DNA from: Streptomyces sp. NRRL F-5126
Lineage (GTDB): Bacteria > Actinomycetota > Actinomycetes > Streptomycetales > Streptomycetaceae
Direction: 5' to 3'
Assembly (NCBI RefSeq): GCF_000721265.1
Contig: NZ_JOFZ01000007.1
Coordinates: forward strand, 124,001-188,000
DNA: 64,000 nt
The translations under genes and the position numbers were made by a program. Shown one piece after another: positions 20,551-28,324 of the stretch. Below the pieces are notes generated by a model. It had not been told where the DNA came from, did no database searches, and saw only the letters and a program-made list of their open reading frames with translations. Position 1 is the first letter of the stretch. Each line of letters starts with the position of its first letter.

Positions 20551-21948
20551 ATGCCGATCGCGACGGTGAACCCCGCCACGGGGGAGACGCTCAAGACGTT
20601 CGACCCGCTGGGGCCCGAGGACGTCGAGCGCATGCTCGCCACGGCGTACGACACGTCCAGGGCCTACCGCACCACGTCGTTCCAGGAGCGCGCCCGCCTG
20701 CTCGGCCGCGCCGCCGACCTCCTCGAACAGGACGCCCCGGACATCGGCCGCACCATCACCACCGAGATGGGCAAGCCGGTCGCACAGGCACGCGCCGAGG
20801 CCGCCAAGTGCGCCAAGGCGATGCGCTGGTACGCGGCGCACGCCGAGGAGCTGCTCGCCGACGAGCACCCCTCGGACGCGGACGTGAAGGACTCCGGCGC
20901 CTTTGCCGCGCGCGTCGTGTTCCGGCCGCTCGGCGTGGTGCTCGCCGTGATGCCGTGGAACTTCCCCCTGTGGCAGGTGGTGCGGTTCGCGGCCCCGGCC
21001 CTGATGGCCGGGAACGTCGGGCTGCTCAAGCACGCGTCCAACGTGCCGCAGACGGCCCTCTACCTGGAGGACCTCTTCCGCAGGGCCGGCTTCCCCGAGG
21101 GCTGCTTCCAGACCCTGCTGATCGGTTCCGACGCCATCGAGTCCGTCCTGCGCGACCCGCGCGTCGCCGCCGCCACGCTCACCGGCAGTGAACCCGCCGG
21201 CCGCTCCGTCGCGTCCATCGCCGGCGACGAGGTCAAGAAGACGGTGCTGGAACTCGGCGGCAGCGACCCGTTCGTCGTGATGGACTCCGCCGACATCGTG
21301 AAGGCCGCGAAGACCGCCGTCACCGCGCGGGTGCAGAACACCGGGCAGTCGTGCATCGCGGCCAAGCGGTTCGTCGTGCACACCGACGTGTACGACGCCT
21401 TCGCGGAGCGGTTCACCTCCGCCATGCGCGAGTTGACCGTCGGCGACCCGATGGACGAGGACACCGACGTCGGCCCGCTCTCCGGCGAGCAGGGCCGCGC
21501 CGACCTCGAGGAGCTCGTCGCAGACGCCGTCAGCCGTGGCGCGCAGGTCCTCTGCGGGGGCGGGCGGCCCGACGGCGCCGGCGCGGGCTGGTTCTACGAG
21601 CCGACGGTGCTCGCCGGCGTCACCCCCGAGATGCGCGTCCACCGGGAGGAGACGTTCGGACCCGTCGCCACCCTCTACCGGGTCGCGAACCTCGACGAGG
21701 CGGTGGCCGTCGCCAACGACACACCGTTCGGACTCAGCTCCAACGTGTGGACGCGCGACGAGCAGGACATCGAGCGGTTCGTCCGCGACCTGGAAGCCGG
21801 CGGCGTGTACGTCAACGGCATGACCGCCTCGCACCCCGCGTTCCCGTTCGGTGGCGTCAAACGCTCCGGCTACGGGCGCGAGCTCGCGGGCCACGGCATC
21901 AGGGAGTTCTGCAACATCACCACCGTGTGGCGCGGCGCCCAGGACTGA
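20551..21948 (+). CDS. gabD: Aldehyde dehydrogenase, succinate-semialdehyde dehydrogenase-like
   Basis: A 465-aa NAD(P)-dependent aldehyde dehydrogenase. The catalytic cysteine is C268 in [12 protein letters not shown] and the general base is E234 in [12 protein letters not shown]. The cofactor-binding strand is [22 protein letters not shown], and it ends in [23 protein letters not shown]. Length and the [13 protein letters not shown] start match the shorter succinate-semialdehyde dehydrogenase group. It would oxidise an aldehyde to the acid while making NAD(P)H. AGGAGGAA gives a strong ribosome site. It stands between transketolase and phosphoketolase; an inverted repeat in the 206-nt upstream gap suggests partly separate control. 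Confidence 0.83.
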
Positions 21949-22030
21949 CCGCCCCGCTGCCCGCCGCCACGCCGACGCGCCGCCCCGGCACGGGGTGCCA
22001 CCGCCCAGGGAAACGAGCAGGGAGAAGAAC

Positions 22031-24412
22031 ATGCACCAGGCGAAGACCCCCGCTGAGCGGCTCACCGACGCCGACCTGGCGGCGCTCGACGCGCACTGGC
22101 GCGCCGCGAACTACCTCGCCGTGGGCCAGATCTACCTGATGGCCAACCCCCTGCTGCGCGAGCCGCTGGCACCCGAGCACATCAAGCCGAGGCTGCTCGG
22201 GCACTGGGGGACGTCACCGGGGCTCAACCTCGTCCACACCCACCTGAACCGGGTGATCAAGGACCGCGGCCTCGACGCGCTGTGCGTGTGGGGGCCAGGA
22301 CACGGCGGTCCCGCCGTCCTCGCCAACTCCTGGATCGAGGGCACCTACGGGGAGACCTATCCGGACGTCGGCCGAGACCGTGCGGGCATGGAGCGGCTGT
22401 TCGAACAGTTCTCCTTCCCCGGTGGGGTGCCCAGCCACGTCGCGCCCGAGACACCCGGCTCCATCCACGAGGGCGGCGAGCTGGGCTACTCGCTCGCCCA
22501 CGCCTACGGCGCGGCCCTCGACAACCCGGAACTCCTGGTCGCGTGTGTGATCGGGGACGGCGAGGCGGAGACGGGCCCCCTGGCCGCCTCCTGGCATGCG
22601 AACAAGTTCCTCGACCCTGTCCACGACGGCGCCGTGCTGCCGATCCTCCACCTCAACGGGTACAAGATCGCCAATCCCGCGGTACTCGCCCGGCTGCCCG
22701 AGGACGAACTCGACGAGCTGCTGCGCGGATACGGCCACGAGCCGATCCACGTCACCGGCGACGAGCCGCTCGCCGTGCACCGAGCCATGGCGGTGGCGAT
22801 GGACGGGGCGCTCGACACCATCGGCGGCATCCAGCGCGCCGCCCGCGAGGGCAGCGACGCCGAGCGCCCCCGGTGGCCCGTGATCGTGCTGCGCACGCCG
22901 AAGGGGTGGACGGGACCGCGCGAGGTGGACGGGCAGCCCGTCGAGGGGACCTGGCGGGCACACCAGGTCCCGCTGAGCGGGGTGCGCACCAACCCCGGTC
23001 ACCTGCGCCAACTCGAGGCCTGGCTGCGCTCGTACCGTCCCGACGACCTGTTCGACGAGAGCGGCGCACCGCTGCCCGAGCTGCTGCGCTTCGTGCCCGA
23101 GGGGACCCGCAGGCTGGGCGCCACACCGTACGCGAACGGCGGGCTGATGCTGCGCGAACTTCCGCTGCCGCCGCTGACGGAGCACGCCGTGCCCGTCGAA
23201 CGTCCCGGCACCGTGCTGCACGAGCCGACCAAGATCCTCGGCGCGCTGCTCGAGGACGTGATGGCGGCGACCGCCGGGCGCCGCGACTTCCGTGTCGTCG
23301 GGCCCGACGAGACCGCGTCCAACCGCCTCGGCGCCCTCTACGAGGCCACGGACAAGGCGTGGGACGCGCTCACGCTCCCCACCGACGAGCACCTGGCGCG
23401 CGGCGGCCGCGTGATGGAGATCCTCTCCGAGCACGTCTGCCAGGGCTGGCTCGAGGGCTACCTCCTGACGGGCCGCCACGGCCTGTTCTCCAGCTACGAG
23501 GCGTTCGCGCACATCGTGGACTCGATGGTCAACCAGCACATCAAGTGGCTGCGCACCTCGCGCAGGCTGACGTGGCGCCGCCCCATCGCCTCCCTCAACT
23601 ACCTGCTCACGTCGCACGTGTGGCGCCAGGACCACAACGGCTTCTCGCACCAGGACCCGGGCTTCGTCGACCACGTGCTCAACAAGAGCCCCGAAGTGGT
23701 GCGCGTCTACCTGCCGCCGGACACCAACACGCTGCTTTCGGTGGCCGACCACGCGCTGCGCAGCCGCGACTACGTCAACGTGATCGTCGCGGGCAAGCAG
23801 CCCACATTCGACTGGCTCACGATGGACGAGGCGATCGCTCACTGCACCAGGGGCCTCGGCGTGTGGGCCTGGGCCGGCACGGAGGACGGCACGCGGGAGC
23901 CCGACGCCGTACTCGCCTGCGCCGGCGACGTGCCGACGCAGGAGACGCTCGCGGCGGCCGACCTGCTGCGGCGCCACCTGCCCGAGCTCGTCCTGCGCGT
24001 GGTCAACGTCGTCGACATGGCGCGCCTGCTGCCGCACGAGGAACACCCGCACGGTATGCGGGAGTCCGAGTACGACGCGCTGTTCACCCGGGACAAGCCG
24101 GTGATCTTCGCCTACCACGGCTACCCCTGGCTGATCCACCGGCTCGCGTACCGGCGCGCGGGCCACACGAACCTCCACGTGCGCGGGTACAAGGAGGAGG
24201 GCACGACCACCACGCCCTTCGACATGGTGGTCAAGAACGACCTGGACAGGTACCGGCTCGTCATGGACGTGATCGACCGCGTGCCCGGGCTCGGCGTGCG
24301 GGCGGTCGCGGTGCGCCAGGCCATGGCCGACGCGCGGGCACGCCACCACGCGTGGATCCGCGAGCACGGCACGGACCTGCCCGAGGTCGCGGAGTGGACG
24401 TGGCAGGGCTGA
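22031..24412 (+). CDS. xfp: Phosphoketolase (xylulose 5-phosphate/fructose 6-phosphate)
   Basis: A 793-aa thiamine diphosphate enzyme of full family length. It splits xylulose 5-phosphate (or fructose 6-phosphate) with phosphate into acetyl phosphate plus glyceraldehyde 3-phosphate (or erythrose 4-phosphate). Visible motifs are [31 protein letters not shown], the cofactor motif [11 protein letters not shown] at residues 175-185 with [11 protein letters not shown], and [43 protein letters not shown] precedes the start. It follows the aldehyde dehydrogenase by 82 nt. Together with the transketolase it forms a phosphoketolase shunt that yields acetyl phosphate without losing carbon as CO2. Confidence 0.93.
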
Positions 24413-24482
24413 CGGCCGGCGCCGGCGGGACGGCACGGGAAGGGACGCTGACGATGACGGCGGCAGACAGGTGCGCGCGGCG

Positions 24483-25403
24483 ATGAGCGGCGGCGCGAAA
24501 GGCGGCCCGCGGACGGTACGGGCGGGACGCAGGATGATCGAGGTGCACCGGCCGGACAAGGTCCTCTTCCCCGGCCGCGAGCTGACCAAGGCCGACCTGG
24601 TCACGCACTACCACGACCTGGCCCCGTACATCGTGCCCGAGCTGAGGGGCAGGCCGCTCATGCTGGAGCGCCACCCCGACGGCCTGGCGGGGCCGCGGTT
24701 CATGCAGAAGAACATCCCGGAGTCGTACCCCGGGTGGATCCGCCGCGCCGAGCTGGAGAAGCAGGGCGGCACGGTCACCCACGCCGTGTGCGACGACACG
24801 GCCACCCTGCTCTACCTGGCTGACCAGGCGTGCCTCACCTTCCACCGCTGGCAGGCGCGCGCGGACCGTCCTGACAACCCGGACCGCCTCGTCTTCGACC
24901 TCGACCCGGCGGGCGACGACTTCGAGCAGGTGCGCTCGGCCGCCGGGCTGCTGGGCGAGCTGCTGGGCGATCTCGAACTGCCCGGCGCCCTGATGACCAC
25001 GGGATCGCGCGGCCTGCACGTGATCGTCAAGCTGGACCGCCGTGCGGGGTTCGACGAGGTACGGGAGTTCGCCGGAGAGGTGGCCGAGGCGCTGGCCGCC
25101 CGTGACCCTGACCACCTCACGACCGAGGTGCGCACGCAGGCGCGTGGCGGCCGCCTCTACCTGGACATCCAGCGCAACGCGTACGCCCAGACGTCGGTCG
25201 CGCCGTACTCGGTGCGCGCCAAGGAGGGCGCGCCCGTCGCGACGCCCATCAGCTGGGACCAGCTCGGCGACCCCGGTCTGCACGCCAGGCGCTGGAGCGT
25301 CGGCACGGTCCTGGAGCAGGCAAGGAAAGACCCCTGGTCGGACGTGCCGGCCAGGGGCAGGGGACTCGGTCGGGCGAGGCGCCGCCTCAGGTCACTGCGG
25401 TGA
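24483..25403 (+). CDS. Stand-alone LigD polymerase-domain protein (NHEJ primase-polymerase)
   Basis: A 306-aa archaeo-eukaryotic primase-fold protein equal to the polymerase domain of LigD, without ligase or nuclease domains. Marks: EVHRPDKVLFPGRELTKADLVTHY, the metal-binding DLDP in LVFDLDPAGDDFEQV, and TTGSRGLHVIV. It fills or extends DNA ends, often with ribonucleotides, during non-homologous end joining. A ku gene lies about 8 kb downstream. Its ATG overlaps the stop of a 10-codon open frame at 24454-24486 (ATGA), which has its own AAGGGA. The true start could be coupled to this leader. The last 12 nt overlap the convergent TPR gene. Confidence 0.87.
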   Translation: MSGGAKGGPRTVRAGRRMIEVHRPDKVLFPGRELTKADLVTHYHDLAPYIVPELRGRPLMLERHPDGLAGPRFMQKNIPESYPGWIRRAELEKQGGTVTHAVCDDTATLLYLADQACLTFHRWQARADRPDNPDRLVFDLDPAGDDFEQVRSAAGLLGELLGDLELPGALMTTGSRGLHVIVKLDRRAGFDEVREFAGEVAEALAARDPDHLTTEVRTQARGGRLYLDIQRNAYAQTSVAPYSVRAKEGAPVATPISWDQLGDPGLHARRWSVGTVLEQARKDPWSDVPARGRGLGRARRRLRSLR

Positions 25404-25886: not shown

Positions 25887-26249
25887 TCAGCCGGTCGGGC
25901 CGGCGGCCGCGTGCCCGGAGAGCGCGAGCGCCGGGTCCTGGCCCGCCCAGTGCGCGAGCGGCGCCACGGGCAGCGTGGAGCCGATCTCCCGCTCCGCTGC
26001 GCCGAGCCACGCGGCCAGCCGGGCGTCGCTCGCCGCGGGAGGCGGAGCCAGGTCGCACAGGACCGGGTGCTGGCGCAGCAGTTCGGGAGCGCACTCGTCG
26101 ACGGCGCGCTGGCGCTGCCAGGGTTCGAGACGGGCGCCGGTCATCCAGTGGAGCAGGGCGGTGCGGCCGTCCTTCCGCCTCCGGGGCAGCCGGCCGGGCG
26201 CCGTGACGCCGAGGATGTCCGCCAGGGGCACGCTGCGCGTTTCACTCAT
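25887..26249 (-). CDS. Hypothetical protein, third gene of the RiPP locus
   Basis: A 120-aa protein with a basic N-terminal part (PGRLPRRRKDGRTALLHWMTGARLEPWQRQRAVDECAP) and an Ala/Pro-rich C-terminus ending HAAAGPTG. No signal peptide, membrane helix or known domain is visible. An in-frame GTG at 26264 is an alternative start. It begins about 36 nt after the P450 gene on the same strand, so co-transcription with precursor and P450 is likely. It could be an accessory factor for processing or regulation, or a bystander. Confidence 0.6.
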   Translation of the reverse strand: MSETRSVPLADILGVTAPGRLPRRRKDGRTALLHWMTGARLEPWQRQRAVDECAPELLRQHPVLCDLAPPPAASDARLAAWLGAAEREIGSTLPVAPLAHWAGQDPALALSGHAAAGPTG

Positions 26250-26285
26250 GGCGCCATCCTGCACCGTCCGCGGTGCCCTGTGGGG

Positions 26286-27335
26286 TCAGCCGCGTACCAC
26301 GCGGACCTCGGCCACCTCCATCAGGCCGTCGAGTTCGACCCTGCCCACCGTCTGGCCCCGGCCCACCGTCAGGCCGTCGCGCCGCACCAGGTCGAGCAGC
26401 CGTTCCGCCAGTGGCATCACCATGTGGCGGCCCCAGCAGCGCTCGTTGGCGTGGCCGAACGGCAGGTAGCCCGGGTGCGTGTCCGGGTCGAGCCCGTCCC
26501 ACCGCTCGGGCAGGAACGCGCCGGGCTCGTCCCAGAGCTTCGGGTCGCGGTGGCTCAGCAGCGGGAGCAGCAGCACGTCGTCGGACGGGCCTATCCGCCG
26601 GTCCACCGCGGTGAACTCGGGCGACGCCACCCGCAGGATGTTCCACGACACGGGCAGCAGGCGCAGGGCCTCGTGGATGATGTGCCGGTTCGGCGTGGCG
26701 TCGTCGAACGGCGCGCCGAGCCACAGCGCGTTGGTGACGAGGGCCGCGACAGTGAAGCACACGGGCGCCGCGACCCGCCGATACAGGTACATCGCGTAAC
26801 GGCGGTCCTGGTAGGTCGCGGAGTCGAGGACGAGTGACGCGAGCTTCGACAGCGGTGCCTCGCGCCCGGGCGCACGCAGCAGCGCGGCACCCGAGGTGAC
26901 GGCCGACCAGGTGAGCTTCGGGGTGAGCTCCAGCCTGCGGTCGACGAGCACGCGAAAGCGCAGGCGCTCCCGGCCGAAGACCAGGTCGCGCAGGTAGGCG
27001 TGCGGTACCTGGGGCCACGGGCCCGTCAGGTCGACGGTGTCCTCCAGGGGACGCTGCAGCGCCTTGCGCACGTCCGACGACACGGCCTGCATGTACGTGG
27101 AGGCGTCGGTACGGCTGACCGACCTCGCCCGAACCGGCTTGAACGTCGGCCGCTCCTCGGCGTTCGCGGGCCTGCTGCGCAGCAGCGCGTCCATCAGGTC
27201 CGGGCCGGCGACGCCGATCGTGTCGGGTTCCAGGCGGAAGAGGTCGGCGCCGGTGTGGCGTGCGAGCAGCGCGTCGATCCGCGGTGCGAAGCGCACGGGC
27301 CGTCCTGCGCGTACGGTGGCCGGTCGTTCTGGCAT
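26286..27335 (-). CDS. Cytochrome P450, likely RiPP-crosslinking (atropopeptide TrpB-like)
   Basis: A 349-aa P450, about 50 residues shorter than a typical bacterial P450. The heme-binding loop reads YLPFGHANERCWGRH with the cysteine ligand C300. The ExxR pair is E222-R225 in HEALRLLPVSW, and the meander FLPERWDGLDPDTHPGY is clear. The I-helix region (VCFTVAALVTNALW) lacks the usual A/G-G-x-D/E-T motif, as if the proton-relay acid were missing. GGAGG 7 nt before the ATG makes the start firm. It follows a 25-codon precursor peptide gene by 79 nt. By analogy with tryptorubin biosynthesis, it probably forms the C-C and C-N crosslinks between aromatic side chains of the core peptide. No other tailoring enzyme is near. 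Confidence 0.85.
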   Translation of the reverse strand: MPERPATVRAGRPVRFAPRIDALLARHTGADLFRLEPDTIGVAGPDLMDALLRSRPANAEERPTFKPVRARSVSRTDASTYMQAVSSDVRKALQRPLEDTVDLTGPWPQVPHAYLRDLVFGRERLRFRVLVDRRLELTPKLTWSAVTSGAALLRAPGREAPLSKLASLVLDSATYQDRRYAMYLYRRVAAPVCFTVAALVTNALWLGAPFDDATPNRHIIHEALRLLPVSWNILRVASPEFTAVDRRIGPSDDVLLLPLLSHRDPKLWDEPGAFLPERWDGLDPDTHPGYLPFGHANERCWGRHMVMPLAERLLDLVRRDGLTVGRGQTVGRVELDGLMEVAEVRVVRG

Positions 27336-27356
27336 GGAGCAACCTCCGGGGCGAAC

Positions 27357-27395
27357 GGCGGGTGACGGGACGCGCCCGGCGCCCCGCCACCCGCC
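27357..27395 (-). terminator. Hairpin between precursor and P450 genes (possible attenuator)
   Basis: GGCGGGTG (27357-27364) pairs with CACCCGCC (27388-27395), and the inner bases extend the stem imperfectly. Placed between the precursor peptide and the P450, it could lower P450 transcript relative to precursor, a common need in RiPP operons. The function is inferred. Confidence 0.45.
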
Positions 27396-27414
27396 CTCTG
27401 CGTGAACGGGCCGA

Positions 27415-27492
27415 TCAGATCCAGCCGTACCACGCGTAGGCCTTGAGGCTCTTCTCGCTCCTGACCTTCTTCATGAGGCGAACGAACTTCAT
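27415..27492 (-). CDS. Atropopeptide-like RiPP precursor peptide, core AWYGWI
   Basis: A 25-aa peptide. The ATG at 27492 is preceded by GGAGG with 5 nt spacing, and the stop is TGA at 27417-27415. The leader (about 19 residues) begins MKFVRLMKK and is strongly basic. The peptide ends SLKAYAWYGWI. Four of the last seven residues are aromatic (Y19, W21, Y22, W24). This is the layout of atropopeptide precursors, whose best-known member tryptorubin A is AWYIWY. Here the fourth core residue is Gly instead of Ile and the last is Ile instead of Tyr. The P450 gene follows directly on the same strand. The leader would be removed by a host protease, since none is encoded nearby. The family link rests on motif, size and P450 context. 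Confidence 0.85.
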   Translation of the reverse strand: MKFVRLMKKVRSEKSLKAYAWYGWI

Positions 27493-27564
27493 GACTACCT
27501 CCAAGTGACGGGAAGTGCTGAGCGCCGGGCGGCGGCCCCTCGCGAGGTCGTCAGCCGTCGCAGA

Positions 27565-27593
27565 AGTGAATGACGGGTCGTCAAGGCAGTCAA
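27565..27593 (-). promoter_or_regulatory. Candidate promoter for the RiPP operon
   Basis: On the minus strand, TTGACT (27593-27588), a 17-nt spacer and TTCACT (27570-27565) resemble a weak housekeeping promoter about 70 nt before the precursor start. A second TTGAC lies 9 nt downstream of the first. The -10 box is poor, so this is tentative. Confidence 0.35.
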
Positions 27594-27784
27594 GTGGCCC
27601 GCATCACTTCCAAATCCGCGCACGGGGTGTTTCGGAGGCGTTGACATTCGCCAACCGGGAAGAATCCGGCCCGAGATGGGAGCTTGCGCCTGATGCAGCA
27701 GCCGGCGCGCTGTGGACGGTGCATAACCGACCGCCTCACGAGAGGTCCGGGACCGGGCCGGAGATTTTACGTCGGCGGCGCCGG

Positions 27785-28168
27785 TCACCGAGTCCCGTCG
27801 AACACACCGCCGCCGGTCGCGGCGGTTCCGCGCGGCGGGTCGGGCAGCCGTCTCGTGCCGCCGGCGCCCGTGCCGCCGGCGCCGGTCTCGTCGTCGTGCG
27901 TGCCTGCCGACGGGTGCTCGCCGGCCTGGCACTCGGCGTCGAAGATGTTGCAGCCGGCCGTGGTTGAAGGCGTGGGTGCGGGCGTGGGAGCAGCGGGGGG
28001 CGGTGAGACGGCCCCCGCCTGGGAGACGTGCGGGCGGGGTGGCTTCGAGTCGGTGGTGCCGTTGCCGCTGCCGAAGGCCGTGAAGACGGCGAACAGGGCG
28101 CCGGCGAGCGCGATGGCGACGGCGAGAGTGAGGGTGGCGGATCGGGAGGTACGGGACGAAGCAGGCAT
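27785..28168 (-). CDS. Hypothetical secreted or membrane-anchored protein
   Basis: A 127-aa protein. An N-terminal hydrophobic segment (SATLTLAVAIALAGALFAVFTAFG) serves as an uncleaved anchor or signal. A Pro/Thr/Ala-rich stalk (PPPAAPTPAPTPSTTAG) follows, then a short motif with two cysteines (GCNIFDAECQAGEHPSAGTHDDET). No known domain is seen. It is on the same strand as the RiPP operon, about 290 nt upstream of the precursor; the gap probably holds its end and the RiPP promoter. A link to the RiPP is possible but unsupported. Confidence 0.6.
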   Translation of the reverse strand: MPASSRTSRSATLTLAVAIALAGALFAVFTAFGSGNGTTDSKPPRPHVSQAGAVSPPPAAPTPAPTPSTTAGCNIFDAECQAGEHPSAGTHDDETGAGGTGAGGTRRLPDPPRGTAATGGGVFDGTR

Positions 28169-28324
28169 GCCCGGATCTTCCCGCAGCGAGAGGCGGTGGG
28201 GGTGCCGACACCTCGGGACCGCGTTGACCGGGTCACCCGCGCGCCGGAGCGCGCGAAGGGCCCCCGCGGGTGGCGCATCCGCGAGAGCCCTCCGTCTGTC
28301 CGTCTGCCGGTGTCCGGCTGCCCG

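Follow-up and report, generated by a model that had tools for sequence, protein, structure and literature searches.

Atropopeptides are defined by a KSLK motif (or a close variant) in the leader of the precursor, a tryptophan at position 2 of the core, and a P450 of the family (PMC11450843). Their cores are mostly hexapeptides, and 683 putative loci have been reported; the bitryptides form the xWxxWx subfamily, with a KSLK leader and tryptophans at core positions 2 and 5 (PMC11450843). The closest characterized system that we could compare is the sva locus of Streptomyces varsoviensis, for which the same paper names contig NZ_JOBF01000044.1 and describes the varsorubins. Varsorubin B1 (WYQWL) is crosslinked by one C-C bond, Trp to Trp, and two C-N bonds, and has thereby lost four hydrogens relative to the linear form. 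Varsorubin B2a has one bond, so that one P450 can give rise to different bond patterns on a single core (PMC11450843). In the AlphaFold model presented there, the leader is helical and lies on the P450, with KSLK guiding the core into the active site; the authors believe that ubiquitous proteases free the product (PMC11450843).

A precursor gene and a P450 gene of the atropopeptide family

We analysed a stretch of 64,000 nucleotides from Streptomyces sp. NRRL F-5126 (the window, to which all positions refer). The best explanation of the evidence as a whole is that it harbors a minimal atropopeptide biosynthetic locus of two genes, to which we assign a probability of about 95%. Judged by its sequence, the locus is an ordinary member of the known atropopeptide (tryptorubin) family and, with its core AWYGWI, of the bitryptide type (xWxxWx).

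The precursor gene (27415..27492, minus strand) consists of 25 codons and a stop codon at 27415-27417, as read directly from the open reading frame, and encodes the peptide MKFVRLMKKVRSEKSLKAYAWYGWI. Its start reads GGAGG-TAGTC-ATG, placing the Shine-Dalgarno sequence (27498..27502, minus strand) 5 nt before the ATG; the sequence-only reading had given coordinates, letters, and spacing of this frame correctly. An alternative in-frame TTG start (27504, 29 codons) was rejected, since it is the ATG that has the Shine-Dalgarno sequence and the match to the precursor family model starts at model position 1. The KSLK motif, as defined in PMC11450843, is encoded at 27442..27453 (minus strand) and occupies residues 14-17, compared to 17-20 in the precursors described in that paper. 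The predicted core AWYGWI (residues 20-25; 27418..27435, minus strand) has its length and boundary set by homology, with a putative processing site, and contains Trp2 and Trp5.

The NCBIfam model NF038372 (“tryptorubin family RiPP precursor”) matched the 25-mer end to end with 50.9 bits (E 1.3e-13), above its curated cut-off of 33. Over the 7.18 Mb genome it gave exactly one match, and none in 14 control genomes. It was positive in 44 of 392 genomes of the same genus (42 of them above the cut-off) and in 20 of 197 genomes drawn from the order, and the precursors of five related loci, SvaA included, all scored above the cut-off (39.2 to 62.2 bits). Among the 16 loci with a WYGW core (window included), the mean pairwise mismatch at the first, second, and third codon positions was 0.196, 0.121, and 0.304, a pattern as expected for coding sequence. 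Codon differences between the window and the other 15 WYGW loci were more often amino-acid-changing (84) than synonymous (61). Since the leader varies across these loci, it is the codon-position pattern, together with the near-constant C-terminus, that speaks for coding. Over the 45 nt 3' of the stop codon, the mismatch was 0.626, an upper bound from an unaligned comparison.

The P450 gene (26286..27335, minus strand; 349 amino acids) begins 79 nt downstream of the precursor stop and has its own Shine-Dalgarno sequence GGAGG (27343..27347, minus strand), located 7 nt before the ATG. The presence of this second gene, also noticed from the letters alone, was confirmed by direct reading and by a match to PF00067 (1.5e-12, residues 219-305), together with its homologues and an AlphaFold model. 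The latter has a pLDDT of 85.3 and matches P450 structures with modest TM-scores of about 0.5-0.6 among the 50 matches listed. The protein contains the motifs E222-x-x-R (26661..26672, minus strand) and F293-GHANER-C300-WG, the haem-binding stretch of residues 293-302 with the ligand Cys300 (26430..26459, minus strand). Of 79 relatives, at least 97% share Glu222, Arg225, Cys300, and Gly302, with FGHxxERCWG as the usual form. The median length of these relatives is 345 residues, indicating that the shortness of the P450 is a family trait. It is 95% identical to the P450 of Streptomyces montanisoli and 70% identical to SvaB of S. varsoviensis. The latter value and the nesting with SvaB in the P450 tree (see below) identify it as the class-defining P450 beside the precursor. 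The assignment to the tryptorubin A family made in the sequence-only reading is thus supported both by the definition in PMC11450843 and by NF038372.

The best NCBIfam match of the P450 is ApyO (NF050147, aminopyruvatide P450), with 62.8 bits. This could point to another P450-RiPP family, be it biarylitide, cittilin-type, aminopyruvatide, or another cyptide. But the score is far below the ApyO cut-off of 525, and precursor length, KSLK motif, and core all fit NF038372. Moreover, biarylitide precursors are five residues long (PMC13417212), and SvaB is the closest characterized relative among the P450s compared. We consider membership in one of these families extremely improbable. A locus that is degenerate or silent, its genes being present but non-functional, would agree with a simple scan of positions 26000-28300, in which no promoter of the sigma-70-like type was found. 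Both reading frames are nevertheless intact, as are both Shine-Dalgarno sequences, the haem cysteine, and the ExxR motif, and the identical precursor occurs together with the 95% identical P450 in S. montanisoli. A silent locus is therefore very unlikely.

Conservation of the precursor-P450 pair and relation of core to enzyme

For comparison, we took the best 80 of 114 confirmed loci with relatives of the P450. All 80 have a precursor just upstream of the P450, 77 recognized by our first pattern and three by eye, the latter with the variant motifs KNLK, TSLK, and RSFK; the pattern was broadened later, once these three exceptions were known. A genus sample of 384 genomes contained 45 P450 places at E <= 1e-60, again all with a precursor upstream. 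At 43 of these, the model NF038372 gave a match on the same strand 65-380 nt upstream (two of these matches score under the cut-off); at the other two places, a divergent precursor was recognized by pattern and by eye. The two samples overlap, and both were selected by likeness to the window P450, so that they are uninformative on more distant P450s. A lack of conservation of the small frame beside related P450 genes, and a P450 outside the RiPP-modifying clade, had been named as observations that would speak against the initial assignment. All 80 loci retain the frame, and in a tree confined to P450s of these loci and the window, with no biarylitide or cittilin enzyme, the window P450 is nested with SvaB.

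A tblastn search with the precursor was negative at four of the more distant loci in the flanking-gene comparison described below (L016, L020, L026, L052), at all of which the precursor pattern was positive. Two genomes (G388, G390) have a precursor place and no P450 row, the P450 search having covered fewer genomes than the precursor search. Eleven loci (L061, L069, L070, L073, L075, L077, L081, L166-L169) form a group with EPSLK or QPSLK precursors; in the genus sample, two precursors of this type scored under the NCBIfam cut-off, and the model failed to detect two more.

We also compared nine genes flanking the pair in the window, one of which (up3) is mis-framed and says little, with 20 loci. 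S. montanisoli has all nine, and one further locus (L003) has two. A 34% identical aldehyde dehydrogenase, a member of a very common protein family, lies near three Amycolatopsis loci, and none of the nine was found at the remaining 15. These comparisons suggest that, in distant genomes, mostly only the precursor-P450 pair is retained. Eight neighboring open reading frames were scanned, encoding an aldehyde dehydrogenase, a phosphoketolase, a protein with a LigD-type polymerase domain, a TPR protein, a DUF7736 protein, a protein without match, a pyridoxamine-oxidase-like protein, and a family-46 glycosyl hydrolase. None of these resembles a tailoring gene, a dedicated protease, or an exporter. 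The genes for the phosphoketolase (21851-24412) and the LigD-type primase-polymerase domain (24471-25403) look ordinary.

The closest locus is that of S. montanisoli MMS17-BM035, which shares the flanking genes, the 95% identical P450, and an identical 25-mer and is distinguished by sequence differences only. The locus had been read as a new member of the family. This holds for the strain, but not for the peptide, which S. montanisoli already encodes. The precursor, which was expected to be missed because of its shortness, is within reach of annotation, since NCBIfam has a model for it and antiSMASH 8 a rule (PMC12230676). In a full-text literature search for AWYGW, WYGWI, and the 12-mer, the only match was a paper on insect antimicrobial peptides.

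The C-terminal six residues of the 81 precursors (window included) are AWYIWY in 23 cases, AWYLWY in 16, AWYGWI in 14, AWYFWY in nine, and AWYHWY in six, with thirteen others. We take AWYIWY to be the core of tryptorubin A. Loci of this type, such as L052 of Streptomyces sp. SPB074, share the precursor family (62.2 bits) and the P450 family (60% identical) with the window, but differ in their aromatic C-terminal residue, in the isoleucine at core position 4, and in residue 183 of the P450, which is Gly there and Tyr in the window. The varsorubin locus resembles the window in its two-gene layout, its KSLK leader, a P450 of the same clade, a core without C-terminal aromatic residue, and a predicted hairpin in the gap, and it differs in its core, SWYQWL instead of AWYGWI. 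The S. clavuligerus megaplasmid encodes a KSLK precursor (47.7 bits), in this case with the core AWYIWW, and directly downstream of it a P450 of 62% identity; going by the species name, this is possibly the clavorubin/amyxirubin locus. For two plasmids of S. clavuligerus (L164, the above locus, and L165), the incomplete gene tables of PLSDB list the P450 and two other genes, but no precursor. Streptomyces sp. A 4/2 has two atropopeptide loci, with the cores AWYGWI (L004) and AWYIWY (L018, with a KNLK leader), and one genome of the genus sample (G358) has two precursor and two P450 places. The locus of Kutzneria sp. 744 (L065) combines a TSLK motif with the core AWALWY, in which position 3 is not a tyrosine; a Trp2-Tyr3 bond is therefore impossible there.

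A P450 tree without outgroup was calculated from 37 of the 81 sequences, comprising every one of the 17 whose core end is aliphatic, plus 20 hand-picked from the other 64 to cover the core types. A single branch (support 100/100) sets apart all 17 loci with a core ending in Ile, Val, or Leu. SvaB is sister to L008 (100/97) within the clade that contains the window (96/88), and a grouping of the 16 WYGW sequences to the exclusion of SvaB was disfavored (p-AU 0.0245). SvaB thus nests inside the clade with aliphatic core ends, and the nearest characterized enzyme lies among the WYGW-core kin of the window. Two rootings with other P450s of the genome that contains the window were discarded: in the first, most outgroup sequences were devoid of the haem motif and are probably wrong-frame translations; in the second, only five outgroup P450s had this motif, and the branches were very long.

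The two core types are accompanied by a difference at residue 183 of the P450, a clade-diagnostic position (Tyr183 in the window; codon 26787..26789, minus strand). All 17 loci with a core ending in I, V, or L have Tyr (16) or Phe (1) there, and the 62 with an aromatic core end invariably have Gly; these counts cover 79 of the 81 sequences, two P450 rows of less than 300 amino acids (L064, L071) having been left out. The residue lies in a long helix predicted for positions 175-207, which we take as the I helix on the basis of the model. The two groups are told apart about equally well by fifteen positions, including 183, and the contrast falls on a single branch of the tree and concerns one clade only. 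We therefore regard this covariation as a lead, and not as proof of contact between residue 183 and the core end.

A predicted hairpin between precursor and P450 genes

Between the precursor stop and the Shine-Dalgarno sequence of the P450 gene, we predicted an RNA hairpin with a 17-bp stem and a 5-nt loop (27357..27395, minus strand). In the 79-nt gap it has an MFE of -48.8 kcal/mol and a z of -2.15, and three of 200 shuffles were as good. Taken alone, in G+C-rich DNA, this is weak. The hairpin could be a plain terminator between two genes with promoters of their own, or simply reflect the high G+C content, with no role in the ratio of precursor to enzyme. Its recurrence was scored over the first 120 nt of 81 precursor-P450 gaps, the criterion being a stem of 11 bp or more without interruption.

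Such a stem was predicted in 58 of 81 gaps, compared to 3.3 expected from shuffles, and a z <= -2 was obtained in 53. Within the same loci, the corresponding numbers were 7/81 upstream of the precursor, 15/79 after the P450 gene, and 2/81 inside it. Since related loci are not independent, the fairest count is that of 20 non-redundant loci (<75% P450 identity), 12 of which have the stem, versus one, two, and one of 20 in the controls. It was found in 54 of 71 gaps from Actinomycetota (window included) and in four of ten from Pseudomonadota, where each of the within-locus controls gave 0/10. In two aligned groups of eight and four loci, the paired columns are paired to 100%. All these observations argue against a mere by-product or a plain terminator.

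Several other results favor that explanation. Stems of at least 11 bp also occur in nine of 23 convergent gaps and in 21 of 88 other co-directional gaps of the 80 loci (genes called by our own G+C rule, with uncertain starts), the latter still a clearly smaller share than the 58/81 of the precursor-P450 gaps (Fisher p 4e-10). The z value of the window is modest, and that of its sister locus in S. montanisoli is only -0.8. The stem is absent in 23 of the 81 loci (L020 and L025 among them) and in six of the ten from Pseudomonadota; in the 17-member clade of the window, 14 have it, and three (L004, L005, L007) fall short of the criterion. Double-sided covariation is likewise modest, with two of 14 pairs in the group of eight and two of 17 in the group of four. 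The covariation scores of both groups beat all slid versions, but 78 of 500 shuffles equaled that of the group of four, and the structures tested were derived from the same sequences. Among pairs anywhere in the gap in thirteen groups, 35 of 374 had changed on both sides, and 34 had a broken member. Finally, a terminator scan gave no terminator-like match at 27357-27395, and direct reading revealed no U-rich tail. Rfam likewise found nothing at the hairpin, its lone match (E 0.96) lying inside the P450 gene and being taken as chance. A short terminator-like stem with a T-rich tail was seen upstream of the precursor (27746-27762, plus strand), the only one in 26000-28300, where 0.5 were expected. 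On balance, a hairpin without a role in the precursor:enzyme ratio is a real possibility, to which we give somewhat less than even odds.

According to mapped 3' ends in S. clavuligerus, 353 of 1,427 are structured without a U-rich tract (PMC8269248). In our interpretation, the hairpin would probably serve as a 3' end or partial terminator that leaves more precursor message than enzyme message. A hairpin-set ratio of precursor to enzyme is not a new idea for RiPPs: according to a review on lasso peptides, strategies for expression include removing a hairpin and replacing the gap between precursor and enzyme genes (PMC7549694). The main texts of two papers (PMC11450843, PMC12352619) use none of the words hairpin, stem-loop, terminator, or intergenic. 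We tentatively propose, at just short of even odds, that the hairpin is a third recurrent part of the cluster, which would cap the precursor message and throttle read-through into the P450 gene, and that a change at residue 183 (Gly against Tyr/Phe) accompanies the loss of the C-terminal aromatic residue, a ring of the enzyme perhaps replacing that of the substrate.

Proposed product and significance

Taken together, we propose the following pathway. The ribosome would make the 25-residue precursor, probably from a message that the hairpin keeps more abundant than that of the P450. The basic leader helix and the KSLK motif would dock the precursor on the neighboring P450, which may then oxidatively link Trp2, Tyr3, and Trp5 of the C-terminal hexapeptide, before host proteases free a hexa- or pentapeptide, putatively AWYGWI or WYGWI. 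These three correspond to the residues that are crosslinked in varsorubin B1, and a product lighter by four hydrogens, possibly also one lighter by two, is to be expected. By analogy with varsorubin B1, the likely product would contain a Trp-Trp C-C, a Trp-Tyr C-N, and a Trp-to-backbone C-N bond, and a monocyclic form lacking two hydrogens may occur as well. Since the core differs from that of varsorubin at positions 1, 4, and 6, the bond pattern may also differ. The calculated [M+H]+ values of the linear form and of the forms lacking two and four hydrogens are 795.3824, 793.3668, and 791.3511 for AWYGWI and 724.3453, 722.3297, and 720.3140 for WYGWI. The rule of 2 Da per crosslink assumed in the sequence-only reading is inexact, as varsorubin B1 loses four hydrogens for three new bonds (PMC11450843). 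AWYGWI and WYQWL have the same calculated mass, and MS1 can therefore not separate the hexapeptide from a pentapeptide of the varsorubin B type.

The locus adds one strain to a large and already mined family. Its interest lies in the WYGW loci surrounding SvaB, with a core that has Gly at position 4 and no C-terminal aromatic residue. The structure of the varsorubin product is known (PMC11450843); its comparison with the predicted product of the window locus would reveal the effect of core positions 4 and 6 on the bond pattern. Addition of a ribosome-binding site before svaB increased the yield 100-fold (PMC11450843). If the hairpin limits expression of the P450, this would fit that increase, and the hairpin would offer a simple handle on yield.
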